In this document: positions 18,161 to 30,262 of the stretch, piece after piece
Layout of the letters: each line of letters starts with the position of its first letter
Numbering within the stretch: position 1 is the first letter of the stretch
From: Gammaproteobacteria bacterium
Lineage (GTDB): Bacteria; Pseudomonadota; Gammaproteobacteria; Pseudomonadales; Porticoccaceae
Assembly (NCBI GenBank): GCA_018069465.1
Contig: JAGPUW010000025.1
Span: 186,001 to 250,000, forward strand
Direction of reading: 5' to 3'
Length of the DNA: 64,000 nucleotides
The notes under the pieces: model-generated
Told to the model about the DNA's origin: nothing
Seen by the model: only the letters and a program-made list of their open reading frames with translations
The model's database searches: none
Translations under genes and position numbers: made by a program

Positions 18161-19744
18161 ATGAGTAAGTCTGCAAGCCCCGCTATTGAAGATGCCCCTC
18201 CCGCCAACCCTCCTACAACGGAGGAAGAAACCGTTTCCATCGGCACCTGGTTCACGGTGTTTGGCGGTGTGCTCGGTGCCTTTATTGCCGTCCTCAACAT
18301 ACACATCACCAATGCCTCGCTGAAAGACATTCAGGGCGCACTCTCGGCAACACTTGAGGAGGGTTCGTTTATTTCCACCGCCTACCTCACCGCCGAGGTG
18401 GTGGTCATACCCGTGACCGGCTGGCTGGCCATGGTTTTTGGCCTGCGCCCCTACATGCTTTTCAATACCCTTATATTTGCTGTCACTACCCTGCTGTGCG
18501 CCTCTGCGTGGAACCTGGAGTCTATGCTGGTTTTCAGGACCCTGGCCGGTCTCGCCGGCGGCACGCTGATCCCTCTTTCGTTCACCTTAATTCTGACCCT
18601 GCTGCCACCCAGTAAACAAGCCATTGGCATGGGTATGTTTGCCCTCACGGCCACTCAGGCACCGTCAATTGGCCCTACCCTTGGCGGCTATTTGACCGAA
18701 GCCTTTGGCTGGCAGTCGGTGTTTTATCTACAAATTGTGCCCACCGGCATTATGTTTTTAATCCTTTATCAGGGCCTGAAAAAGACCACACCACAGTTGA
18801 AGCTGCTCAAAAATGGCGACTGGTTTGGCATCCTCTCGATGGCCGTTGGCCTCGGTGCGATGATTATTGTGCTCGAAGAAGGCAATCGCAAAGACTGGCT
18901 AGAATCAAACTTTATTTTGAACGGCACCCTTCTCGCCACGACCTGCCTGCTCACTTTCGTTGTCATTGAACTGAAACGCAAAGACCCCTTTATTAACCTG
19001 CGCCTATTGGCCCGCCGCAATTTTTTGCTAGCAAATCTGGTGGGCATCATCCTCGGGCTCGGCCTTTACGGTTCAGTGTTTATCCTGCCCATGTTCCTCG
19101 CCCAGGTGCACGGCTTTAATGCCATGCAGATCGGCCTGGTGATGATGTGGGTGGGTCTGCCCCAGCTCATTGTCGTGCCCATTGTGCTGCGGCTAATGGC
19201 CTTTATCGATATGCGCGTACTGCTGGCCTTCGGGGCATTTATTTTCGGCCTGAGCTGTCTGCTTAATATTCATATGACAGCCGATTACGGCCACGATCAC
19301 CTGGTTTGGCCGAATATTGTGCGCGGCCTGGGCATGCCTTTTATTATGGTGCCGCTCAACGTGATCGCCACTGCCGGCATTGAGAAGGAACAAGTTGGCT
19401 CGGCCTCGGGCCTGTTCAATGTACTGCGCAATTTAGGGGGCGCCGTCGGCATCGCCACGCTGGCGACCTTTTTGTCACTGCGCCAACAATATCACTCCAG
19501 CCACATTGTCGAAAATATCAGCGCCTACAAGCCCTTCACCATGGAGCGGCTGCAAGGTTTTGCCGATTATTTTGGCGGACTGGGTGCCGACCCCGTGCTA
19601 GCGCAGGAACAGGCCATAAGAGCTGTTGACGCCATCGCCCGGCGCGAGAGTTTCATCATGGCCTATAACGACTGTTTTTATTTTATGGGCGCGGCCTTTA
19701 TCGTCAGCCTGGGTTTTATTGCGTTGATGAAAAAACCCGCATAA
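18161..19744 (+). CDS. DHA2-family MFS multidrug exporter (EmrB-like), copy 1
   Basis: The 527-aa protein has about 14 membrane helices. The opening block WFTVFGGVLGAFIAVLNIHI with LKDIQGALSATLEEGSF and ISTAYLTAEVVVIPVTGWL is the DHA2 motif region. It probably exports amphipathic drugs or lipids through the HlyD-type adaptor encoded 66 bp upstream. The next gene is a close paralogue, so the pair arose by tandem duplication. A 45-residue cytoplasmic N-terminal tail precedes the first helix. Confidence 0.92.
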   Translation: MSKSASPAIEDAPPANPPTTEEETVSIGTWFTVFGGVLGAFIAVLNIHITNASLKDIQGALSATLEEGSFISTAYLTAEVVVIPVTGWLAMVFGLRPYMLFNTLIFAVTTLLCASAWNLESMLVFRTLAGLAGGTLIPLSFTLILTLLPPSKQAIGMGMFALTATQAPSIGPTLGGYLTEAFGWQSVFYLQIVPTGIMFLILYQGLKKTTPQLKLLKNGDWFGILSMAVGLGAMIIVLEEGNRKDWLESNFILNGTLLATTCLLTFVVIELKRKDPFINLRLLARRNFLLANLVGIILGLGLYGSVFILPMFLAQVHGFNAMQIGLVMMWVGLPQLIVVPIVLRLMAFIDMRVLLAFGAFIFGLSCLLNIHMTADYGHDHLVWPNIVRGLGMPFIMVPLNVIATAGIEKEQVGSASGLFNVLRNLGGAVGIATLATFLSLRQQYHSSHIVENISAYKPFTMERLQGFADYFGGLGADPVLAQEQAIRAVDAIARRESFIMAYNDCFYFMGAAFIVSLGFIALMKKPA

Positions 19745-19824
19745 GGCCCTTGCTCAATGAAAACGAGAGCCATGAAAAACACAACACTAAAAACGCCCTC
19801 TTCTTGTGAAACTGGTAAGCCTTG

Positions 19825-21414
19825 ATGACTGATGTAACAGCAAGCCAGGAAGAACAAACAAACCCCACCGCACCACCCGTCGATGAAGACTACGTTTCAT
19901 TAAAAACCTGGTTTACCGTGTGGGGCAGTGTTATCGGCGCCTTTATCGCCGTGCTCAATATCATGATCACCAACTCCTCCCTGAAGGATATTCAGGGCGC
20001 ACTCGGGGCAACCTTGCACGAGGGCTCGTTTATATCCACCGCCTACCTGACCGCCGAAGTCGTGGTTATCCCCCTCACCGGCTGGCTGGTGCAGGTCGTC
20101 GGACTGCGCCGCTTTGTACTCAGCGCTTCAAGTATATTTCTCGCGGCTACACTCTGCTGCGCCATGGCCTGGAGTTTGGAATCGATGCTGGTGTTTCGCA
20201 CCATTGCCGGTTTTGCCGGCGGCACTTTCATCCCGCTGTCGTTTACCGTCATCCTCACCCTGCTACCGCCCAGTAAACAGCCCCTGGGCATCGCCATGTT
20301 TTCCCTCACCGCGACTCAGGCGCCCTCTATAGGCCCAACTCTCGGCGGTTTTCTCACCGAAAACTACGGCTGGGAATCGATCTTTTATTTGCAGGTGATC
20401 CCCACCTCGATGATGATTATGATTCTGTCCTGGGGTTTAAGTCAGTCCAACAGTAAATGGGCCATGCTCAAAGAAGCCGACTGGCCCGGTATTTTTACGC
20501 TGTCGGCCGCTCTCGGGGCGATGATTATTATTCTCGAAGAAGGCAACCGACTCGACTGGCTGGAATCACCGTCCGTCGTCAGGGGCAGTCTTTTTGCCGG
20601 CTCCTGCTTTTTAATTTTTCTCTACCGCCAACTCTGGGGGCCAAATCCCTTTATTAATATCCGCCTGTTAGCGCGCTGGAATTTTGGTATGGCCAATGTT
20701 ATTGGCGTCATCCTTGGCCTCGGCTTATACGGCACCATATTTATTACCCCGCTTTATCTAGCGCAAATTCAGGACTACAACGCCCTGCAAATTGGCGTCA
20801 CCATGATGTGGTTCGGCTTCCCCCAGTTGATTGCCGTACCCTTAATCGTGCGCTTAATGAAGAAGGTCGATTTACGCCACCTCGTCGCCTTCGGCTGCCT
20901 CATTTTTGCCTGGAGCTGTTTAATCAACATCCACATGAATGCAGAATCAGGCTATGACCAACTATTACTGGCCAATTTTATTCGCGGTATCGGCCAACCT
21001 TTTCTCTCCATCCCCCTCGCCGTTATGGCCACCGTGGGCATCGAGCAGGCACAGGCTGGCTCTGCCTCGGGACTTTATAATTTAACCCGCAACCTCGGCG
21101 GCGCTGTGGGCATCGCCTTTCTCGCCACTTTTTTATCCATTCGCCAGCAATTCCACTCCAGCTATGTGGTGGAAAACATCTCCCTCTACAACCCGGTAAC
21201 TGTCGAACGTCTAGATGGTATGAAAAATTATTTTGTAAACCTCGGCGCCGATACCGGCCTCGCACAAGAACAAGCTCTGCTCGCCATCGACGCCATTGCC
21301 CGGCGTGAAAGTATGGTCATGGCCTATAACGATGCCTTTTATTTTGTTGGCGCGGCCTTCGTATTCGGGGCCTTTGTGACGTATACCCTGAAGCCTTTTC
21401 GACCGCAGGGTTAA
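19825..21414 (+). CDS. DHA2-family MFS multidrug exporter (EmrB-like), copy 2
   Basis: The 529-aa paralogue of the preceding transporter shares long near-identical stretches such as GSFISTAYLTAEVVVIPLTG, FTVILTLLPPSKQPLG and GSASGLYNLTRNLGGAVGIA. It is also predicted to have 14 helices. The start is taken at ATG 19825; a TTG just before it would add one residue. It lies 80 bp after copy 1 and has no adaptor of its own, so the two pumps may share one. Similarity is highest in the N-terminal half by eye. Confidence 0.9.
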   Translation: MTDVTASQEEQTNPTAPPVDEDYVSLKTWFTVWGSVIGAFIAVLNIMITNSSLKDIQGALGATLHEGSFISTAYLTAEVVVIPLTGWLVQVVGLRRFVLSASSIFLAATLCCAMAWSLESMLVFRTIAGFAGGTFIPLSFTVILTLLPPSKQPLGIAMFSLTATQAPSIGPTLGGFLTENYGWESIFYLQVIPTSMMIMILSWGLSQSNSKWAMLKEADWPGIFTLSAALGAMIIILEEGNRLDWLESPSVVRGSLFAGSCFLIFLYRQLWGPNPFINIRLLARWNFGMANVIGVILGLGLYGTIFITPLYLAQIQDYNALQIGVTMMWFGFPQLIAVPLIVRLMKKVDLRHLVAFGCLIFAWSCLINIHMNAESGYDQLLLANFIRGIGQPFLSIPLAVMATVGIEQAQAGSASGLYNLTRNLGGAVGIAFLATFLSIRQQFHSSYVVENISLYNPVTVERLDGMKNYFVNLGADTGLAQEQALLAIDAIARRESMVMAYNDAFYFVGAAFVFGAFVTYTLKPFRPQG

Positions 21415-21520
21415 GCACTTTTTCGTCAACCTGGCATCGCCACCGCTGACGATATCCCGGCTCCAAAATCGGCAGGGCCGCCTAGTCGATTGGCTTACTG
21501 ACCTGCGTCCCGGCACACCT

Positions 21521-21640
21521 CGTTTACTCACCAAGGACAGCGACGCTGTAAAAGCCCCGTTTAGGAAAGCACAAATACGGGCCAGGCTTGAACATCCTTT
21601 CCGTGATATTAAAAGAGTGTTCGCTTACGATAAAACTTGA
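21521..21640 (+). pseudogene. IS5-type transposase, C-terminal remnant
   Basis: In one frame this stretch reads RKAQIRARLEHPFRDIKRVF followed by AYDKT and a stop. The IRA(K/R)xEHPFRxIKRxF pattern is the C-terminal catalytic block, including the last Glu of the DDE triad, of IS5-group transposases. No start, no upstream DDE domain and no terminal inverted repeats are seen, so this is an old fragment. It fills part of the 345-bp space between the exporters and the speD-type gene and marks that junction as a past insertion or rearrangement point. Confidence 0.6.
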
Positions 21641-21759
21641 CCTTCAGCCCCAGCCACCTACCATGGCCGCAGCCATATTCAGTTAAATGACAGCGTTAAG
21701 TGGTCTGTGTCAATAATCCAAAGTCCACTGCCCACATACAGCCTAGACAAGGGAAACTT

Positions 21760-22152
21760 ATGATCATCGGACAGCACTTGCTGATTGAGTGCCGCGGTCG
21801 GCATGCCGATCTCGATGCCGAGCAGCTGTTATTGCTAATGACGGATGCCGCGTTGGCCGGTGGCGCCACTGTGCTGTTCCAACACTTCCACAAATTTGGC
21901 GATCAGGGTGGGGTGACCGGGGTGCTGATACTCGCCGAGTCCCATATCACCGTGCATACCTGGCCCGAGCATCACTACGCCGCCTTCGATGTATTTATGT
22001 GTGGCAAGGCTCGGCCCGAGGCCGCTGCGCAGGTCATTGCCGCGCGCTTTCCCGAGGCCGATGTTTTCATCAAAACGGTGGATAGAGCCTGTCCCACTAG
22101 CACCCCGGCCAATTCTGCCAGCGCAGCAGTCGCCGTCTGCGAACCCCATTAA
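21760..22152 (+). CDS. speD: S-adenosylmethionine decarboxylase proenzyme (SpeD/SpeH type)
   Basis: The 130-aa pyruvoyl proenzyme has its self-cleavage site at Glu60-Ser61 in LAESHITVHTWPE, His66 and Cys81 (FMCG). The Ser-to-His (+5) and Ser-to-Cys (+20) spacings equal those of the short class 1b enzymes of Thermotoga and Bacillus. It produces decarboxylated AdoMet, the aminopropyl donor. The start at 21760 follows AAGGGA; an earlier frame extension lacks a ribosome site. It is the first gene of the ten-gene cluster, and its product would feed the aminopropyltransferase three genes on. The C-terminal tail (about 110-130) is Ala/Ser-rich. Confidence 0.92.
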   Translation: MIIGQHLLIECRGRHADLDAEQLLLLMTDAALAGGATVLFQHFHKFGDQGGVTGVLILAESHITVHTWPEHHYAAFDVFMCGKARPEAAAQVIAARFPEADVFIKTVDRACPTSTPANSASAAVAVCEPH

Positions 22153-22165
22153 TCAGGATGTTTTT

Positions 22166-23140
22166 ATGAGAATAAGCACCGCAAGATGGGCTCTACTGCT
22201 CTGCATCGCGACGCTGCTGGCGGCCTGCTCTTCTGAGCAGGACAAGTGGCTACAGCAACTAAACCAGCAAGCGTCCGTTACCAGCACCAAGCTCGAACGC
22301 TTAAAACAACACATCGATGCCGGGCAGATCGCCAATACCCGAGTACTGAGCCAGTACGCCGCGGTGATCCGTACTGACCGTCCCGAACTCGCTGACTTAA
22401 GCGCTGCCCTGGCCCAGGATGCCAGCCCCGAGGGGCCCATCATTCGCTCGCTCCAATCGCGACTCAGCGATGCGCAAAGTGATATCCCCAATGTTGTGAC
22501 CCTTAGCTCCGAGCAGGTCAACAAGGTCTACCAGGAACTGTCGGCCATTGAGGCCGCGGCCCAGCCCGATACCTACGGCATGATGCTCAGCGACCCCATC
22601 AATGTGCTGGCTGATATGTCGGAGGGCAAACTGGCCCGTGTGGCAGCGATGAGCGCCGAGGCCAGCGCCCGCATTAATGATGCCGAAGATTTTGGCCCCG
22701 GCAGCCAGCTAGTGGGCAACCCCCAGTACGGTAGTTGGCAATCAAACAGTTCCGGCACTTCTTTCTGGCATTGGTATGGACAGTACGCCTTTTTTTCCAG
22801 CATGTTTCGCAGCCCTATTTCCTACGGCAGTTGGGGCCGGGGTCGCGACTACAGCTATTACAACGACTACGGGCGCTCGGCCTATACCTCGCCCAGCCAG
22901 CGCCAAAATCAGCAAACAACAGAGCGCAGCACCCGGAATAAATTCAAAAGCTCGGGCAAGAAATTTTCCAGCCCCTACGCCAGCACCAAGCAAACCACCG
23001 CAAGCGTGGCCAGAAAGTCGAGCAAGTTCCAGCCAAAATCGCTACCCAGCAGCAGATCCATAAAATCCGCTAAAAGTACGACGTCTAACTATCGCAGCTC
23101 AACCTACCAATCATCGCGCAGCTCCTTTGGCGGCAAATAG
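22166..23140 (+). CDS. Lipoprotein with Ser/Arg/Tyr-rich C-terminus, function unknown
   Basis: The 324-aa product has a signal peptide ending in the lipobox LAAC (Cys21), so it should be lipid-anchored. Residues 22-190 look helical and polar. The region from about 215 to the end is low complexity, rich in Ser, Tyr, Arg, Lys and Gln, ending RSSFGGK. I do not recognise a family. The start at 22166 (AGGA upstream) was chosen for the signal peptide; the frame stays open upstream inside speD. The gene lies 13 bp after speD and 15 bp before the DUF350 gene, so it is in the same operon. A role outside the inner membrane in the same process is inferred. E. coli yjfM occupies a comparable place but I cannot claim homology. 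Confidence 0.75.
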   Translation: MRISTARWALLLCIATLLAACSSEQDKWLQQLNQQASVTSTKLERLKQHIDAGQIANTRVLSQYAAVIRTDRPELADLSAALAQDASPEGPIIRSLQSRLSDAQSDIPNVVTLSSEQVNKVYQELSAIEAAAQPDTYGMMLSDPINVLADMSEGKLARVAAMSAEASARINDAEDFGPGSQLVGNPQYGSWQSNSSGTSFWHWYGQYAFFSSMFRSPISYGSWGRGRDYSYYNDYGRSAYTSPSQRQNQQTTERSTRNKFKSSGKKFSSPYASTKQTTASVARKSSKFQPKSLPSSRSIKSAKSTTSNYRSSTYQSSRSSFGGK

Positions 23141-23155
23141 AGCGGAGACTTTTCA

Positions 23156-24043
23156 ATGATTCACGAAATTTCAATCTGGACCTTATCCATTGTCGCCATC
23201 AACCTGGCCATCGCCATCGCCGCGATTTGCCTGTTCCGTGTACTTTTCGGCCTGCTGGCGGGCGTTAACACCACTGCCGAGCTGTCAGAAAAAGACAACT
23301 TCGCCTTTGGTATCACCTTTGCCGGTGGTGCTGGCGCCCTCGGCCTGGTCTTGTCGGCCGCGGTGACCGGTGATGCCGCCGACAATCTACTTAGCGAAGC
23401 GCTGAATGTCACCACTTACGCGCTGGCGGGTATTGCCCTGCTCAAAGTGGGCTCGATGATTAATGACCACGTTATTTTTCACAAGGTATCCCTCAAAAAA
23501 GCGATCGCCGAGCACCAATTGGCGGCGGGCTGTGTACAAGCCGCCAACTTCCTCGCCCTGGGTTTAATTATCAGCTCAACAGTAAACTGGGTGGAGTATG
23601 AGAACTGGCAGGGCCTACCCTCGGTGCTGGTACTGTTCTTTGGTGCGCAATGTGTGCTGTTGCTGGTAACGCGACTGCGTGCGCAAATCTACCGCCGCCG
23701 TCATCAGGGCGAAAGCCTGCAACAGGCGATTGTCGCGGGCAACACGGCGCTGGCGATTCGCTACTCGGGCCACGTTCTCGGCACCGCTCTGGCGATGACG
23801 GCCGGGGCCAGTCTGGTCGACTATCTAGAGGCTGAACCCCTGTTATCCATCCTCAGCTGGCTCGGTGTAGGCACCTGCCTGGCCGTGCTGTTACCGGCTC
23901 TGGCACTGATTGCTCGCAAGGCGATTCTGGCCAATATTAATGTCGCCGAAGAAGTCGACGAGCAGCATAATGTCGGCGTGGCTTTTATTGAGGCGGTCAT
24001 TTATATCGCCATCGCCCTGCTGTTAATTGGGGTGCTGGCATAA
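23156..24043 (+). CDS. DUF350 (YjfL-like) membrane protein, two-repeat form
   Basis: A 295-aa integral membrane protein of about eight helices in two related halves (each like AFGITFAGGAGALGLVLSAA and NTALAIRYSGHVLGTALAMT, followed by LxxYLxxxPLLSxL-like segments). DUF350 proteins such as E. coli YjfL have one repeat; here two appear to be fused. The function of the family is unknown. It often accompanies PspA/IM30 paralogues and polyamine enzymes, as here. The gene sits 15 bp after the lipoprotein gene and is followed by a GTG start 2 bp after its stop, so coupling is tight. GGAGA precedes the ATG. Confidence 0.85.
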   Translation: MIHEISIWTLSIVAINLAIAIAAICLFRVLFGLLAGVNTTAELSEKDNFAFGITFAGGAGALGLVLSAAVTGDAADNLLSEALNVTTYALAGIALLKVGSMINDHVIFHKVSLKKAIAEHQLAAGCVQAANFLALGLIISSTVNWVEYENWQGLPSVLVLFFGAQCVLLLVTRLRAQIYRRRHQGESLQQAIVAGNTALAIRYSGHVLGTALAMTAGASLVDYLEAEPLLSILSWLGVGTCLAVLLPALALIARKAILANINVAEEVDEQHNVGVAFIEAVIYIAIALLLIGVLA

Positions 24044-24045
24044 CA

Positions 24046-25839
24046 GTGGACGCTAGAGCTAAACCGCATACCTCTAAACCGCTAGCATCAAAACCAGACA
24101 GCACCCAGGCGCCGCCCATTAAAAACTCACGTCGAGAGCTGCTGGTTCACGACATTTTTCTGATTACCCTGATGGCCACACTGGCCGGCTGCGGGATCAT
24201 TTACGAGTACTTAATGGCCCACTATGCGGGGCGTGTACTCGGCGCTCTCGAATCAACCATCTACGCGATGATTGGCATTATGATCGTCGCCATGGGCCTC
24301 GGTGCACTGCTGGCGAAATGGCTGCGTTGCCCCTTTAAAAGCTTCGCCTGGCTGGAGTGGACTATCGCCTTCGTCGGGGCCACGGCGCTCATTGTGATCT
24401 CCCTCTGTATCTCCCTGGCCTTTACTTTCCCCACCTATTTGCAGGAAATTTACGGCTTACACCCCAGCATTACGACCAATGGCGACGTGGTGAAAGCTCT
24501 GGCCACCACTGCCAAGGCGACACCTTTTGTGGTCGGTGCCCTGCTGGGTTTGATGATAGGTATGGAAATACCACTGATCGCCCGAATTCGCGAGCAGATC
24601 CACGGCCAGCATCTGGAGCACAACCTGGGCACCATTTATGGCGCCGACTATATTGGCGCTGGTATCGGTGCCGCTATCTGGGTGCTGTTCTGCCTGCAGC
24701 TGCCCATACTGGTCGCCGCCCTGAGTACCGCTCTGGTCAACGCCATCATCGGCATTGCTTTTCTCATCAAATACCAGCGCTACCTGCCACGGCGCAGAGC
24801 ACTATGGCTGGCACATGGGGGCCTGCTCGTGCTGCTCGCGGTTCTCGCCGGCGGTGGCGCAACGTGGATGGAAAACATGCATCGGGCGCTGTTTAAAGAC
24901 CATGTGCTGTACACCAAGGTCACCCCCTTCCAGCACCTGACCATTACCGAGCGCGTACTCGGTGCCGGGCTACCCAAAATCACTAGCCTCTATATCAACG
25001 GGCGCCTGCAGTTTTCGAGCAACGACGAGTTGATTTACCACAGCTATTTGACCCACCCGCCCCTGCTCGCCTCTGCGCGGCAGGAGCAAATACTGGTGAT
25101 TGGCGGCGGCGATGGTCTGGCACTGCGCGACATCCTGCGCTGGCAGCCCGTGGCGGTCACGCTGATAGATCTCGACGGCGCCATGGTCTCCCTGTTTAGC
25201 GGCAGCGACAGCGAGGCCCCCACCGCCATTACCGAACGTTTGCTAGCACTCAACGCCAGTGCCTTTCAGGACCCGAGGGTAGACGTCATTATTGGCGACG
25301 CCTTTGTCGAAGTCGAAAGTTTAGTCAGCGCCGGACGCCACTTCGACACCATTATTGTCGACCTGCCCGACCCCAGCCACCCCGACATCAACAAGGTTTA
25401 CTCGACCTTTTTTTATCTGCGCTTAAAACAACTACTCAGCGGTGATGGCGCCATCGGCATTCAATCGACCTCACCCTTCCACACCAAACAAGCCTTTCTG
25501 TCGATTGGTAAAACCCTCCACGCCGCCGGTTTTACCACCGAGCAATATCACGCCAATGTGCCGACGTTTGGCGAGTGGGGCTGGACCATTGGCACACTGC
25601 GGGGCGAGGGGCCATCGGCGCGAATTGCCGACGCCCCAACGATGGCGATAACGCCACCTGCCTCCTGGTTGTCGACACCGCAAATTCTTGCCGCCTTTGT
25701 TTTTTCCAGCCGCTATTTTGACGAACTTGAGAAAATCAACATCAACACCCTGGGTTCGCACCAGCTCTATCAATACCACCAGCGCGCCTGGAAGCAGCAC
25801 GACGGGGCTTTTTTCCCCGATAAAAACCCCTTTGACTAA
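24046..25839 (+). CDS. Membrane-anchored polyamine aminopropyltransferase (spermidine-synthase-like)
   Basis: 597 aa. Residues about 35-275 form roughly seven membrane helices; about 290-520 form a SpeE-type methyltransferase-fold domain with GGGDG at 353-357, DLD at 375-377 for the donor, and VDLPDPSHPD in place of the usual D(C/S)TDP loop. It transfers an aminopropyl group from decarboxylated AdoMet to an amine. Where typical SpeE has DEFIYHE, this one has DELIYHS, so one acceptor-side acid is changed and the acceptor may differ from putrescine. Start is GTG, 2 bp after the DUF350 stop. The donor is supplied by the SpeD-type enzyme of the same operon. Confidence 0.85.
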   Translation: MDARAKPHTSKPLASKPDSTQAPPIKNSRRELLVHDIFLITLMATLAGCGIIYEYLMAHYAGRVLGALESTIYAMIGIMIVAMGLGALLAKWLRCPFKSFAWLEWTIAFVGATALIVISLCISLAFTFPTYLQEIYGLHPSITTNGDVVKALATTAKATPFVVGALLGLMIGMEIPLIARIREQIHGQHLEHNLGTIYGADYIGAGIGAAIWVLFCLQLPILVAALSTALVNAIIGIAFLIKYQRYLPRRRALWLAHGGLLVLLAVLAGGGATWMENMHRALFKDHVLYTKVTPFQHLTITERVLGAGLPKITSLYINGRLQFSSNDELIYHSYLTHPPLLASARQEQILVIGGGDGLALRDILRWQPVAVTLIDLDGAMVSLFSGSDSEAPTAITERLLALNASAFQDPRVDVIIGDAFVEVESLVSAGRHFDTIIVDLPDPSHPDINKVYSTFFYLRLKQLLSGDGAIGIQSTSPFHTKQAFLSIGKTLHAAGFTTEQYHANVPTFGEWGWTIGTLRGEGPSARIADAPTMAITPPASWLSTPQILAAFVFSSRYFDELEKININTLGSHQLYQYHQRAWKQHDGAFFPDKNPFD

Positions 25840-25885
25840 TGCCATAATATGGCATAAGGTACCTCCACTGCCATAATATGGCATA
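25840..25885. promoter_or_regulatory. Two identical 17-bp palindromic sites (candidate operator pair)
   Basis: TGCCATAATATGGCATA occurs at 25840-25856 and again at 25869-25885, 29 bp from start to start, which is close to three helical turns. Each contains the perfect palindrome TGCCATA-A-TATGGCA. The spacer holds a further small palindrome, AGGTACCT. The sites fill the 68-bp gap between the aminopropyltransferase and the DUF2170 gene, the widest gap in the first half of the cluster. A dimeric regulator acting on the second half of the operon is the simplest reading. I found no other copy by eye in the window. Confidence 0.6.
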
Positions 25886-25907
25886 CAAGAACAGCAAGGA
25901 GCTTTAC

Positions 25908-26309
25908 ATGTCACTCACTGAACTCGCTTTTAAACTCAACGCTCATACCAGCGCTGAAGACACTCGTTTCGATGCCGTGCTATCCGCTAACGGCGTACTC
26001 GAAGTTAGCTGTTCTAACAACGAAGAGTTTCCCATCAACATCGTCAAAACCGACACCCAGCTATTGGCCATTACGCCGCTGTTTAACCTTGCCGAAGTAC
26101 AGGCCGACAAAGTCGACGAGCTGAATAAAGAATTGCTGTTTATCAGCCCTGCCATTCCCCTCAGTTCTGTTGGCCGCCAGGGGGACACCTACATTCTTTT
26201 CGGTGCCATGGCCCTCGATACTATCTTTGAAAACATTGTTCACGAACTGGAAGTACAAGCGGAAAACACCCTGGACGTACTTCAGGCAGTCGAACCACTG
26301 TTGCTTTAA
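25908..26309 (+). CDS. DUF2170 (YjfI-like) protein
   Basis: The 133-aa soluble acidic protein resembles DUF2170/YjfI: the middle reads NNEEFPINIVKTDTQLLAIT and SPAIPLSSVGRQGDTYILFG, followed by a helical Glu-rich end. The function is unknown; the gene is next to a PspA paralogue in E. coli (yjfI-yjfJ) and here. AAGGAG lies 6 bp before ATG 25908; an earlier ATG at 25878 falls inside the second palindrome and lacks a ribosome site. 67 bp separate it from the PspA-like gene. Confidence 0.85.
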   Translation: MSLTELAFKLNAHTSAEDTRFDAVLSANGVLEVSCSNNEEFPINIVKTDTQLLAITPLFNLAEVQADKVDELNKELLFISPAIPLSSVGRQGDTYILFGAMALDTIFENIVHELEVQAENTLDVLQAVEPLLL

Positions 26310-26376
26310 AGCGTTTAGTTTTGCGCCAAACAATCGAAAAATGCTTACCCCAATATTGTAATAACGGAGACGAAAC

Positions 26377-27072
26377 ATGGGAATTTTAAAAAACATACTC
26401 ACTGCCGTGCGCGGTGGTGCCAGTGAAGTTGGCGAAGCCATTGTCGATGTTAACGCCGTGCGTATTCTCGAACAGGAAATTCGCGACGCCGAAAGCGCCA
26501 TTGGCAAAGCCAAACAATCATTGACCAGCCTAAAAGCCAGTGAAATTAAACTCAAACGAGAAATACACGTCGCTCAAAGTGATATTGGCGATTACGAGAG
26601 CAAGGCCGTACAGGCTTTGGACGCGGGTAATGAAGCCCTCGCCGTCGAAGTCGCCGAGCGCATTGCTGAACTCGAAAGCGATACCGCAGAGAAAACAGCA
26701 GAACACAGCTCCCTCAGCGCCCAGGTGAATAAAATTAACAGCATGATTCGCCAGCGTGAAAAAACTATTCAGAAAAATTCCCGCGAACTGGAAAAAATAA
26801 AAACCGTTGAGCAATTGCAAAAAGCGACATCCACCATGTCGACCAATTTTGCCGCCACCAATGCCAGCGACCACCGCGTGTCAAAGGCTCTGGATCGGGT
26901 GAAGAAAAAGCAGGCGAACTGGGAAGATCGCATGGAGGCCGGCGAGTGGATGGCGGAAGAAGAAAACAATGACGACCTCGACAATAAATTAAAGGCCGCC
27001 GGTATTGGTGCCAATTCCAGCGCCGGTGCTAGCAGTGTACTCGAGCGTCTGAAAAAGCAATCTGGCCAGTAA
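26377..27072 (+). CDS. PspA/IM30-family protein (YjfJ-like)
   Basis: The 231-aa protein is almost wholly helical and coiled-coil. It opens with MGILKNILTAVRGGASEVGE, an amphipathic membrane-binding helix, then repeated heptads (about 25-150) and an acidic C-terminal part. PspA/IM30 proteins assemble into ESCRT-III-like oligomers on the inner face of the cytoplasmic membrane and protect it under stress. No PspF/PspBC-type partner is seen, so this is the YjfJ branch rather than canonical phage-shock PspA. CGGAG precedes the start. A strong hairpin follows the gene. Confidence 0.9.
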   Translation: MGILKNILTAVRGGASEVGEAIVDVNAVRILEQEIRDAESAIGKAKQSLTSLKASEIKLKREIHVAQSDIGDYESKAVQALDAGNEALAVEVAERIAELESDTAEKTAEHSSLSAQVNKINSMIRQREKTIQKNSRELEKIKTVEQLQKATSTMSTNFAATNASDHRVSKALDRVKKKQANWEDRMEAGEWMAEEENNDDLDNKLKAAGIGANSSAGASSVLERLKKQSGQ

Positions 27073-27102
27073 TACACCGGCTATCGAGTATACTGTTGCG
27101 AA

Positions 27103-27134
27103 CACCGCAGTGGCACTTCCGTGTCACTGCGGTG
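27103..27134 (+). other. 14-bp hairpin between the PspA-like and DUF2491 genes
   Basis: CACCGCAGTGGCAC and GTGTCACTGCGGTG pair fully (one G-T) around the loop TTCC. It begins 31 bp after the pspA-like stop, in the 99-bp intergenic space. No T-run follows, so it is more likely to protect the upstream mRNA from 3' decay or to weaken read-through than to end the operon. Confidence 0.6.
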
Positions 27135-27171
27135 CAACGTCCACAAGCAAAAACTCGATGATTAAAAAACC

Positions 27172-27804
27172 ATGATTAAAAAGTTTTTTTCGCGAAACAA
27201 GCCCACCGTCGAGCGCCAGCTAAACAGCCCTGAGCAGCTGGTAGTCGGGGATATGATCTCACTCAAATACCGCGAATCCCTGCCCCCCGACTTGCGCGAA
27301 CAAACGCTGGAAGTCAGCAGTGTCGGCGGCTATGAATACGCCTCCGGCACCAGTAAAGAAGTGGTACTGAAAGACCAGCGCAATCACCTCTACTTTATGT
27401 CGGTCGAAAAAACCGATGGCGAAATCCAGCTGTGTTTTGCCAGAAAGATTTCCCGCAGCGAACTGTTCAGCTTTATCGATGAGGACAGTTTCGCCCAATT
27501 GTGGTCTGAACATTGGGCGGAGTTATCTGTAACGCACACCCCTGAGGCATTTAGCGGCTGGCTCTGCCCCGACTATCGACAAACTGTTAAAGAACAAGAA
27601 GCCTATTACTACGACCGCGATTGCCAGGGCGAAAACCTTGCCGCCGCCGAAGATGGTGAAGAACTGCGCTACCACGAATGTGAGGGCAGCGATGATCACT
27701 TTGGTTTAGGCGTTGAAATTAGTGCTGACGGCAGCACCGAGATTTTCTTACAGCTTTACTGCGCGCCCGATGTGATTGATCAAATGTGGCCCCATGGCCA
27801 TTGA
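27172..27804 (+). CDS. DUF2491 (YjfK-like) protein
   Basis: The 210-aa soluble acidic protein starts MIKKFFSRNKPTVERQLNSP, a basic head, followed by a beta-rich body (EVSSVGGYEYASGTSKEVVL, FMSVEKTDGEIQLCFARKI). It matches the DUF2491/YjfK type in size, basic head and neighbour (PspA-like gene upstream). Function unknown. Its last 11 bp overlap the next gene, so translation is coupled. Confidence 0.82.
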   Translation: MIKKFFSRNKPTVERQLNSPEQLVVGDMISLKYRESLPPDLREQTLEVSSVGGYEYASGTSKEVVLKDQRNHLYFMSVEKTDGEIQLCFARKISRSELFSFIDEDSFAQLWSEHWAELSVTHTPEAFSGWLCPDYRQTVKEQEAYYYDRDCQGENLAAAEDGEELRYHECEGSDDHFGLGVEISADGSTEIFLQLYCAPDVIDQMWPHGH

Positions 27805-28150
27805 GCACAACCCAAAATGGGCCGATGAAAAACGCGCCCTGAAAAAAGTGCAAATGCACTTTGTCTTCAAAGAGCAGCTCAACAAGCGTATTCGCCACGA
27901 TGCCGCCGATGAAAACCTCAACCCCAGCGACATTATTCGCAAGGTCGTCGGCCTCTCCTACCAGCGGATTCAGCGACCGAGAATCGGCTTATCTTTTAAT
28001 GGTGATGACCTAAGGTTTCTTGCCCAACGCTATGGTGTCGATGATGAAAAAAACATCCGACGCCGAGTACTCGAAGAAGTCACCTTGTATTACCAGAGTG
28101 ACGATGAGAGTAAAACAAAGATCACCACAGGTAAGACTAAAGGCAAATGA
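27794..28150 (+). CDS. Small basic protein with a ribbon-helix-helix-like segment, possible regulator
   Basis: The 118-aa product is basic. Residues about 16-55 (MHFVFKEQLNKRIRHDAADE then NLNPSDIIRKVVGL) have the shape of a ribbon-helix-helix fold: a short strand, a helix and a second helix starting after a Pro-Ser cap. No family was recognised with certainty. The start at ATG 27794 overlaps DUF2491 by 11 bp; an ATG at 27776 is possible. Its stop overlaps the channel start as ATGA. If it is a DNA-binding protein, the twin palindromes at 25840-25885 are the obvious target; that is a hypothesis. Confidence 0.6.
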   Translation: MAIEHNPKWADEKRALKKVQMHFVFKEQLNKRIRHDAADENLNPSDIIRKVVGLSYQRIQRPRIGLSFNGDDLRFLAQRYGVDDEKNIRRRVLEEVTLYYQSDDESKTKITTGKTKGK

Positions 28151-29244
28151 TCAACCAGCTCATCACCATGCTGCATTGGAAACAGCGAAGTCACCTAAAA
28201 TACGCCTCGGGGCAACGCCAGACATCCTATAAACTCGGCCGTCTGCTTGTGTTGCTGATCGCCCTAATTCTCATCCACTCGCTGGCGATGGTCTATTTTG
28301 AAAACTTGGCCTGGGCAGATGCCCTCTGGCTATCGGTCACCACCGTCACCACCGTTGGCTACGGTGATATGTCACCCGTCACATGGCAGGGCAGGCTCGC
28401 TACCGCCCTGTGTCTGTACCTGTTTGCGATATCACTATTGGCACAACTGGCCGCCCTGTTTTTTGAAGTGCGCCTAAAAACACGGGAAGACAAACTCAAA
28501 GGCAACTGGATTTGGGACGATATGAAAAATCACCTTTTAATCATCAATACCCCCGATGAAAACACCGACACTTATCTGGAACGCCTTGTCGGGCAAATTC
28601 GAGCGACACCAAAATTCGAACACTTGCCACTGCAAATTCTGACCCAAAAATACCCCAATGGTCTGCCTCACGAACTGACTCAACACGGCATTGTTCACTA
28701 CCATGGCGCGGCACAAAGCACGGCTAGCCTGGAGGCCGCCAACCTTGGCGAGGCAAAGTATATTGTCATCCTCGCCAGAGATGCCGGGGACTCACTATCC
28801 GACAGTTTGAGTTTTGACATCCTCAGCCGCATTGAGGAATTGGGCAGCACGGCAATGATTGCCGTAGAGTGCATTGTCGATGAAAATCGCCAGCGCCTGA
28901 TCAAAGCCGGGGCCGATGTAGTGCTACGCCCCATACGCGCCTATCCCGAACTACTGGTGCGCGCCCTCGCCAACCCGGGCACCGAAGCGGTACTGGAAAA
29001 TCTTTTCACCCACGATGAAAGCCATTTACAGCGCATCGACATCCACCTTCAAGACATCCCATGGAAAGACATTATCACTGTTTTTCTAAATAATGACTTT
29101 GGCATTCCCATGGCCTATATCGATGCCAGCGGCGTGCACAGCAACCCGCTAGCCAGCAGCCTCTGTTCAGGTAGCGCCATCATCGCCATGATTCGAGCGG
29201 GGCAGACCGTTTCGCCCGATGATATTCGTCGAGCGCTCAGCTAG
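28147..29244 (+). CDS. Two-helix potassium channel with cytoplasmic C-terminal domain
   Basis: The 365-aa protein has a membrane helix (about 31-50), a pore loop with the K+ selectivity filter TVGYGD at 69-74 (TTVTTVGYGDMSPVTWQGR) and a second helix (about 84-107). A C-terminal regulatory region of about 250 residues includes a nucleotide-binding-like fold (KYIVILARDAGDSLSD, AVECIVDENRQRLIKAGAD) like RCK/TrkA-N domains. It would conduct K+ across the inner membrane. The start ATGA overlap with the preceding stop shows tight coupling. Channels of this kind accompany PspA/YjfL-type clusters. Confidence 0.9.
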   Translation: MINQLITMLHWKQRSHLKYASGQRQTSYKLGRLLVLLIALILIHSLAMVYFENLAWADALWLSVTTVTTVGYGDMSPVTWQGRLATALCLYLFAISLLAQLAALFFEVRLKTREDKLKGNWIWDDMKNHLLIINTPDENTDTYLERLVGQIRATPKFEHLPLQILTQKYPNGLPHELTQHGIVHYHGAAQSTASLEAANLGEAKYIVILARDAGDSLSDSLSFDILSRIEELGSTAMIAVECIVDENRQRLIKAGADVVLRPIRAYPELLVRALANPGTEAVLENLFTHDESHLQRIDIHLQDIPWKDIITVFLNNDFGIPMAYIDASGVHSNPLASSLCSGSAIIAMIRAGQTVSPDDIRRALS

Positions 29245-29282
29245 AGCCAAACAAAACCCTAACAACAGCCGATGCCATAACC

Positions 29283-29852
29283 ATGTTATCTACAGTAAAA
29301 ATCCCAGCGGTGATTTATCTACTCGCTGCTTTATGGGCGGTACATTGCCTGCAGTGGCTAATACCCGGCGACCTTCAACACTACGGCATATTGCCGCGCA
29401 GCCTGCCCGACTTGTGGCATATCGCCCTGGCACCTTTTCTTCACGCCAGCCTGTGGCATCTGATTGGCAATAGCCTGCCTCTGCTGGGCCTGGGGATTCT
29501 GCTACACGTACAGCTCGACAAAGGCACATCCCTTTGGGAGCTGTGCGCCCTCATCGCGCTTTTATCGGGACTCGGCACCTGGTTATTCGGTCGCAATGCC
29601 TACCACATTGGCGCCAGTGGTGTGGTATTGGGCCTATGGGCCTTTATTCTCGGCGAGGCCTATTTTCGCCGCTCGATGAAAGCTCTCGGCATCGCTCTGT
29701 TAACCCTGATATTTTATTCTGGACTGGCCTTTAGTCTGTTAGATTTTCGCGCCCATATTTCCTGGGCAGGTCATATCAGCGGCTTTATCAGCGGTATTCT
29801 CATCGCCTGGCTAAATGTGCGGGGCCAATCCATCAGCGATAACAAAGGCTAA
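29283..29852 (+). CDS. Rhomboid-family intramembrane serine protease
   Basis: The 189-aa membrane protein of about six helices carries the rhomboid dyad Ser112 in GASG and His164 in WAGHISGF, plus the WHLIGN motif (His59, Asn63) that forms the oxyanion site. It would cleave single-pass membrane helices within the bilayer. It follows the K+ channel by 38 bp and closes the cluster; possible substrates include membrane proteins of the cluster, but none is shown. Confidence 0.9.
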   Translation: MLSTVKIPAVIYLLAALWAVHCLQWLIPGDLQHYGILPRSLPDLWHIALAPFLHASLWHLIGNSLPLLGLGILLHVQLDKGTSLWELCALIALLSGLGTWLFGRNAYHIGASGVVLGLWAFILGEAYFRRSMKALGIALLTLIFYSGLAFSLLDFRAHISWAGHISGFISGILIAWLNVRGQSISDNKG

Positions 29853-30262
29853 AGTTACAGCCCTGCAGCCACGTCAAAGGGAGTGGCAAGCAATTCATCA
29901 CCTGACACTCTCCCTTCAGCTTCAGATAGCTACCTTTTGCTTATTGATATATGGCACTTACGCAAATTGGTCTTGTGTGCTGCTGGCGGCTATTTTTGGC
30001 ACCAGTGAAATGACGCCAATAGCCGGCAGCGGTTATTCGGGTTTACCCTGGCAAGAATCTTTAGTCACTCTGGGTCTATTAAGCGTTGGCATCACAGTGC
30101 TTGGTGCTTGGTGCTTGGTGCTTAGTGCTTAGTGCTTGGTGCTTAGTGCTTAGTGCTTGGTGCTTGGTGCTTGGTGCTTAGTGCTTAGTGCTTAGTGCTT
30201 GGTGCTTGGTGCTTGGTGCAAGTCTCATGCTAGCCATTGGCTTTTTTCGGCATCAACAGTAG
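29815..30262 (+). pseudogene. Small membrane-protein frame broken by a heptanucleotide array
   Basis: One frame encodes two hydrophobic segments (ATFCLLIYGTYANWSCVLLA, and LVTLGLLSVGITVLG) up to 30096. The frame then enters a GTGCTT(G/A) array and meets TAG at 30130-30132. After the array, a continuation (ASLMLAIGFFRHQQ, stop 30260-30262) appears in register if a single heptamer is kept, giving ITVLGASLMLAIGFF. The present 17 copies are out of register and carry the in-frame TAG. An expansion inside a small membrane-protein gene is the simplest explanation. No clear ribosome site is seen; the start is unknown and no family was recognised. Confidence 0.35.
30097..30215 (+). repeat. 17 tandem copies of a 7-bp unit GTGCTTG/GTGCTTA
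   Basis: By direct count there are 17 perfect units: 10 end in G and 7 in A, in the order GGGAAGAAGGGAAAGGG, with a partial unit after. Period 7 is not a multiple of 3, so copy changes alter the reading frame. It lies in the 444-bp space after the rhomboid gene and before the convergent pyrD gene. Confidence 0.97.

Follow-up and report, generated by a model that had tools for sequence, protein, structure and literature searches.

Paired palindromes preceding a DUF2170-PspA-DUF4178-RHH gene unit as putative operators of the co-encoded RHH protein

Background

Ravi et al. (2024; PMC11237479) describe an operon consisting of CesT/Tir (DUF2170), PspA, spermine synthase, DUF350, and DUF4178 genes, as seen in Shewanella (AAN56744-AAN56747), with a final RHH gene called, in some cases, a transcription factor. 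The cluster considered here, found within a 64,000-nucleotide stretch of a gammaproteobacterial genome (the whole of which is 'the window'), matches the published account of that operon as to gene set, i.e., DUF2170, PspA, 7TM-spermine synthase, DUF350, lipoprotein, DUF4178, and RHH, but adds AdoMet-decarboxylase-like and rhomboid genes. The portions of Ravi et al. which deal with this operon list the RHH gene without its targets and do not give operator, promoter, or regulon. The association of the RHH gene with a palindrome, and with nfeD, htpX, nhaA, AIM24, and pspA, comes from the present analysis, with the putative operator naming a likely binder along with a testable site and promoter. 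A literature search, one excluding preprints and most subscription journals, found no paper giving this operator, its string in this context, or the regulon.

RHH autorepressors (CopG, Arc, MetJ, NikR, ParG, KacA, and AtaR types) resemble the window's RHH protein in being small, in having a strand-helix-helix fold, and, as predicted for the window's protein, in acting at short palindromic operators over their own promoters. The window protein differs in apparently carrying two strand-helix-helix units in one chain, as does AvtR, and its putative operators differ in being separate 13-bp palindromes of variable spacing. The classical Psp system (PspF, sigma54, pspABC) likewise places a PspA-family protein within an inner-membrane stress response, though there under a sigma54 promoter and an activator, PspF, whereas for the window's unit a sigma70 promoter is predicted, with an RHH protein as its likely regulator. 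The window's cluster, moreover, does not resemble a classical Psp system in that a Pfam scan of ten of its proteins found no PspB, PspC, or PspF.

Also similar are the Pseudomonas aeruginosa bac operon and Escherichia coli yjfIJKLMC, in which, as in the window, DUF2170 is followed by a PspA homologue. A P. aeruginosa bacA (DUF2170) mutant accumulates Bac proteins, an effect interpreted in that study as BacA exerting negative control, and a putative sigma54 site has been reported for bac (PMC10948618). The longer, YjfI-type DUF2170 genes of those RHH-less genomes which were examined lack the palindrome, unlike the window.

The palindrome pair and its gene cluster

The window is part of contig 21 of a 3.6-Mb assembly. 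Upon inspection of its sequence, one 17-mer, TGCCATAATATGGCATA, is found twice (O1 and O2; Table 1), 29 bp apart from start to start and with 12 bp between copies, the two together occupying the interval which separates the stop codon of the speE-like gene from the start codon (ATG) of DUF2170. An initial annotation of this DNA had claimed just such an identical pair ahead of DUF2170, which is borne out, and had described each copy as holding a perfect 15-bp palindrome, which is correct save for an unavoidable central base. Each copy, that is, contains TGCCATA-A-TATGGCA, i.e., 7-bp arms about a single base.

Table 1. Coordinates of predicted regulatory elements and genes, counted from the first nucleotide of the window
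Feature	Position	Strand	Remarks
speD-like (AdoMet-decarboxylase-like) gene	21760-22152		polyamine half
Lipoprotein gene	22199-23140		opens the polyamine half
DUF350 gene	23156-24043		polyamine half
Membrane spermidine-synthase-like (speE-like) protein	24046-25839	+	closes the upstream, polyamine half
Predicted -35, TTGACT	25832-25837	+	overlaps speE-like gene end; same position in 8/8 members of the window RHH subclade
O1, predicted operator, TGCCATAATATGGCATA	25840-25856	.	core palindrome GCCATAATATGGC, 25841-25853, perfect in all close homologues and G040
Predicted -10, TAAGGT (weak match)	25855-25860	+	17 bp after -35, directly after O1; TACAGT, TACATT, TAATGT in relatives
O2, predicted operator, same 17-mer as O1	25869-25885	.	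core 25870-25882; begins at about +1/+2 of the predicted transcript
Shine-Dalgarno of DUF2170, AAGGAG	25896-25901	+	from sequence; conserved in close relatives
DUF2170 (YjfI/BacA type, CesT/Tir-like)	25908-26309	+	first gene of the putatively controlled unit; Pfam PF09938, E 5e-22
PspA/IM30 family protein (YjfJ-like)	26377-27072	+	PF04012, E 1.2e-39
DUF4178-like protein	27172-27804	+	PF13785, E 7.6e-4, below cut-off
RHH protein, 118 aa, candidate autorepressor	27794-28150	+	AF2, Foldseek, weak family Pfam matches, co-occurrence with operator
Potassium-channel-like protein	28147-29244	+	unit end in many relatives; PF07885, E 4e-14
Rhomboid-family protein	29283-29852	+	possibly last gene of unit; PF01694, E 2.1e-20; in several relatives, comes after the channel gene or the RHH gene

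Of 23 odd palindromes with 6-bp arms in the window, one has an exact duplicate within 60 bp. Among 60 Markov-1 random sequences of the window's size, such palindromes averaged 17.9, with zero exact duplicates within 60 bp. The duplicated palindrome accordingly exceeds what chance would supply. The genome-wide search which the initial annotation had proposed finds the exact 15-mer only at O1 and O2, with a looser form, GNCATAWTATGNC, adding a single asymmetric match (C7:42458-42470, GCCATAATATGCC).

The pair had also been credited with a three-turn, near-helical phasing. This is loose in the window, where a helix of 10.5 bp per turn makes 2.76 turns in 29 bp, and is unsupported among homologous pairs, whose spacings are 15, 17, 18, 28, 29, and 31-46 bp (mode, 34) with whole turns not favoured (mean phase about 0.37 turn at 10.5 bp, resultant 0.42). 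A cooperative, helically phased operator pair was thereby rejected, as whole-turn spacing does not extend across these homologues. What recurs instead is the position of the palindromes relative to predicted promoter elements.

DUF2170 is predicted to open its own transcription unit, including in genomes where polyamine genes are not adjacent. Further upstream, ahead of the speD-like gene, is an adjacent pair of paralogous MFS transporter-like genes (18161-19744 and 19822-21414).

Conservation of the palindromes

Conservation was considered from two directions, the first of them led by protein, with 98 relatives searched for the DUF2170 and 118-aa proteins, and 369 genomes of the class searched with an alignment of the latter. 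This protein-led set is the only one in which identity of the 13-bp core is free of bias from a search pattern. The 118-aa RHH protein is present in 21 genomes, the window's included, and at least one perfect copy of G(A/C)CATAWTATG(T/G)C precedes DUF2170 in 17 of these, so that the palindromes are indeed retained in homologous clusters. Two perfect copies of GCCATAWTATGGC precede DUF2170 in four relatives from the same genus (spacing 28) and in G040, from another family (spacing 31). More distant relatives carry GACATAWTATGTC, twice in G052, once each in G095 and G049, and as pair or single in G148, G173 (its second copy imperfect), G235, G274, G292, G335, G401, and G461. RHH-positive G171 and G298 possess paired sites with one arm position changed (CCCATAATATGTC), and RHH-positive G328 and G378 displayed neither palindrome nor DUF2170 in the stretch examined. 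No palindrome is found before five RHH-less DUF2170 genes (those of G083, G043, G042, and G053, and the second copy in G095). It is the base sequence of the palindrome, beyond mere pairing, which is kept among these homologues, at 25-40% protein identity. Separately, a second cluster in G274 (L089, 11593-11640) has three degenerate CATAWTATG sites in 17-bp steps, with that genome's perfect pair found on another contig (L210).

The second direction was led by motif, using the pair pattern CATAWTATGKC-N0..35-GMCATAWTATG. Among 369 Gammaproteobacteria the pair is seen in eight, that is, in 8 of 13 genomes with the RHH gene and in none of 356 without (Fisher p 1.6e-13); for a single GACATAWTATGTC site, with the window's GCC form counted, the corresponding numbers are 9 of 13 and 4 of 356. 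A pair-only scan of 84,980 genomes supplied at least 80 pair loci. Among the 80 listed, 61 lie directly before DUF2170, 53 have the RHH gene within the locus, and 71 are from genomes possessing it, a count which takes L109 to be the RHH-positive G006, with the other 26 divided between 17 having RHH elsewhere in the genome and 9 having none. Those nine, mostly Clostridia, Bacteroidales, and Leptospira, agree with a chance estimate of about seven, one derived from base counts with composition ignored. As the motif-led scan selects for the core, invariance there of the 13 core bases is not independent evidence.

The RHH gene persists in loci lacking speE, DUF4178, or channel genes, and where pairs lie outside of the cluster, as they do in seven genomes of Gammaproteobacteria among the matches listed, an RHH gene is in every case present elsewhere. 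The sites, as shown by these computations, are real, are conserved in sequence as well as place, and track presence of the RHH gene. The initial annotation's operator-like pair is supported to this extent, i.e., as a conserved pair at the start of a DUF2170-PspA-DUF4178-RHH unit. Two loci may be mentioned in their own right. In Aliikangiella marina (L113, 1486-1528) a pair directly precedes a PspA-rhomboid unit with DUF2170 and RHH not adjacent, there being two RHH homologues elsewhere in the genome. A Desulfocapsaceae MAG (L095, 1630-1676) has a DUF2170-PspA-DUF4178-RHH cluster with GCC-type operators despite lying outside of the Gammaproteobacteria, which may be due to transfer or to a mis-binned contig.

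Arms are GAC..GTC in most clusters and GCC..GGC in the window clade, in G040, and in the Desulfocapsaceae MAG, a change that is symmetric, that is, with the arms still matched. In the RHH tree, five sequences with a KK-Q-HF strand form one group (100/100 support) on a long branch, which takes in the RHH proteins accompanying GCC..GGC operators and inside of which L134 is unresolved. L134 has a KKIQMHF strand, as in the GCC clade, yet a GAC operator, and this breaks any simple rule by which strand residues would specify GAC or GCC. The arm change consequently lies within the group, but the KK-Q-HF strand does not by itself determine it.

The RHH protein as candidate binder

AF2 modeling of the 27794-28150 product as a single chain (pLDDT 80, 53-row alignment) gives a strand-like stretch at residues 18-24 with helices at 27-39 and 44-51, then a repeat of this arrangement at 62-69, 70-80, and 85-108, although DSSP assigns no strands to the single chain. 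The protein thus appears, in this model, to consist of two strand-helix-helix units. Foldseek comparison with the PDB returns mainly RHH folds (NikA, prob 0.87, rmsd 1.4; CopG, CdbA, MazE, Arc, and AvtR, the last a tandem RHH protein), all with E of at least 0.2, so that the strand-helix-helix fold is found by model together with individually weak matches. No curated Pfam RHH family gives a significant match to the window's protein. Across 53 family members there were weak matches to NikA-like (5, best 9.7e-5), RHH_1 (4, 0.0059), and FitA-like RHH (3, 0.0081) families. A PDB sequence match to 1r45 (E 0.0044), an ADP-ribosyltransferase, was taken as chance, and sequence searches of the PDB with this protein gave no other useful match. 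The initial annotation's suggestion that this product is a candidate binder gains from the two-way co-occurrence of gene and site, which makes it the best candidate.

Promoter geometry and proposed regulation

In all eight members of the window subclade, O1 sits between a -35 and a weak -10, predicted by consensus, which are exactly 17 bp apart. The -35 takes the forms TTGACT, TTGCCA, and TTGACA (TTGCCA in G040, TTGACA in both L095 and L134), is in a stretch that within the window's genus is also coding, and would place the window's transcript start near 25867. A consensus scan offers as alternative a -35 of ATGGCA (25849-25854) and, after 17 bp, an extended -10 of CATAAT (25872-25877), which would employ the two palindromes themselves as -35 and extended -10. 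Under either assignment, the operators are inferred to overlap RNA polymerase contacts. In the major clade, TT precedes O1 in 61 of 73 loci, with TTGACA as a result becoming part of the palindrome, and -10 matches are best where the spacer is 16 bp. In ten of ten htpX promoters, TTGA and TAWTAT are separated by 16 bp, the -10 there being supplied by the core of the palindrome. Operators, that is, overlap with predicted -35, spacer, -10, or +1. These are characteristics of autogenous operators, i.e., a palindrome found at the promoter of the unit encoding its candidate binder, conserved along with that binder, and overlapping predicted polymerase contact sites.

The palindromes most probably are operators of the co-encoded RHH protein, with the latter an autorepressor which blocks RNA polymerase. 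RHH dimers, or instead pseudo-dimeric chains, the latter proposed because one chain carries two strand-helix-helix units, would bind the TGCCATAATATGGCA duplex, each palindrome via a beta-ribbon. With O1 filling the 17-bp spacer between predicted -35 and -10, and O2 beginning at the transcript start, occupancy would block RNA polymerase and repress DUF2170-PspA-DUF4178-RHH-channel, the regulator's own gene included. Membrane stress, sensed either directly or via a partner such as DUF2170 or PspA, may then relieve that repression.

The protein might bind yet activate, or act both ways depending on site. Some RHH proteins do both activate and repress, and at Shewanella nfeD and lipoprotein promoters a single site is found upstream of a TATAGT-like -10. 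Repressors predominate among autogenous RHH regulators, however, and the overlap with predicted promoter elements at both operon and htpX favours occlusion, i.e., repression, leaving activation unlikely. Somewhat less likely still is that the palindromes bind a transcription factor encoded elsewhere, with the RHH gene merely a target or its product acting elsewhere. The link between site and gene is one of presence, absence, and position, such that another regulator, distributed among genomes in the same way, could give rise to it. Against this, no DNA-binding candidate other than the RHH gene was recognised in the cluster, and that gene is retained where speE, DUF4178, or channel is missing and is found in all seven of the genomes having off-cluster pairs.

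A quite improbable reading is that of an RNA element, with mRNA hairpins, formed by each palindrome alone or by O1-O2 pairing, affecting DUF2170 processing or translation. The 25835-25910 RNA does fold (-23.6 kcal/mol, z -3.9 versus shuffles), but any repeated palindrome should do so, O1, which includes or adjoins the predicted -35, probably is outside of the main transcript, and single copies are found at nfeD, htpX, and nhaA promoters. There also are no Rfam matches in the window. This reading is set aside on the grounds that conservation goes beyond pairing and extends to base sequence and promoter position. Lastly, a functionless tandem duplication arising by chance, or a mobile repeat, can be dismissed nearly outright, for although a recent tandem copy would look like exact duplication, the palindrome is conserved across families and in the Desulfocapsaceae MAG with differing spacing and flanks, no duplicates were seen in the 60 random sequences, and the uniqueness of the exact site to O1 and O2 rules out a mobile or REP repeat.

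Additional sites and a putative regulon

Returning to the RHH protein as autorepressor, its sites may extend well beyond its own unit. In 32 RHH-positive genomes, selected as ones which possess a pair, GACATAWTATGTC was counted 177 times versus 4 for a reversed-pattern control. Extra sites were retrieved from 20 of these genomes, with gene starts picked automatically and downstream genes clustered by blastp. Those genes are NfeD-like in 16 genomes, HtpX in 12, NhaA in 5 (all of the Colwellia group), AIM24 in 4, a YqiJ-like membrane protein in 3, PspA in 2, and an SPFH protein and YbjQ in 1 each. Pfam, applied to one representative per target, names NfeD, M48 (HtpX), NhaA, AIM24, PspA, Band 7, and YbjQ, and has no match for the YqiJ-like representative. 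The same RHH regulator thus probably controls nfeD, htpX, nhaA, AIM24, pspA, and SPFH genes as well in Shewanella, Colwellia, and Motilimonas. As these targets mostly have functions in inner-membrane maintenance, the set is read as a membrane-stress regulon.

A single palindrome also is found upstream of the lipoprotein gene in 16 of the 36 relatives having upstream sequence there, implying that in those relatives both halves of the cluster share a regulator. The polyamine half, judging from such sites, probably is under this common control in Shewanella and Colwellia, with no sign of it in the window, where 21000-30200 contains no second operator even with up to 3 mismatches allowed. The initial annotation had the polyamine and PspA/channel halves under separate control; this holds in that DUF2170 starts its own unit, but not in that the same palindrome precedes the lipoprotein gene in those 16 relatives. 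Nor was a second palindrome-bearing promoter found in the window's lineage.

The balance of this evidence leans toward a new inner-membrane stress regulon of marine Gammaproteobacteria, one in which a double-RHH repressor, expressed from its own PspA operon, would control nfeD/SPFH, HtpX, NhaA, AIM24, canonical pspA, and the polyamine half, with the window's lineage narrowed to its own operon in conjunction with a symmetric arm change and a relocation of O1, out of the -35 box and into the spacer between -35 and -10. So predicted, the regulon, in genera which include laboratory strains (Shewanella), brings together PspA-like proteins, SPFH/NfeD membrane-domain proteins, the HtpX protease, ion antiport, and a set of polyamine enzymes. 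This suggests that, under envelope stress, such genes answer to an RHH repressor instead of to PspF, Cpx, or sigma E.

Motilimonas genomes (L298, L302, L304, and others) possess 8-10 sites, including at targets absent from the Shewanella set, i.e., M16 peptidases, hydrolases, and transport genes, which suggests regulon drift. In two Colwellia MAGs (L162, 1832-1878; L170, 4905-4951), pairs with 34-bp spacing, these outside of the PspA cluster, precede an alpha-type carbonic anhydrase.
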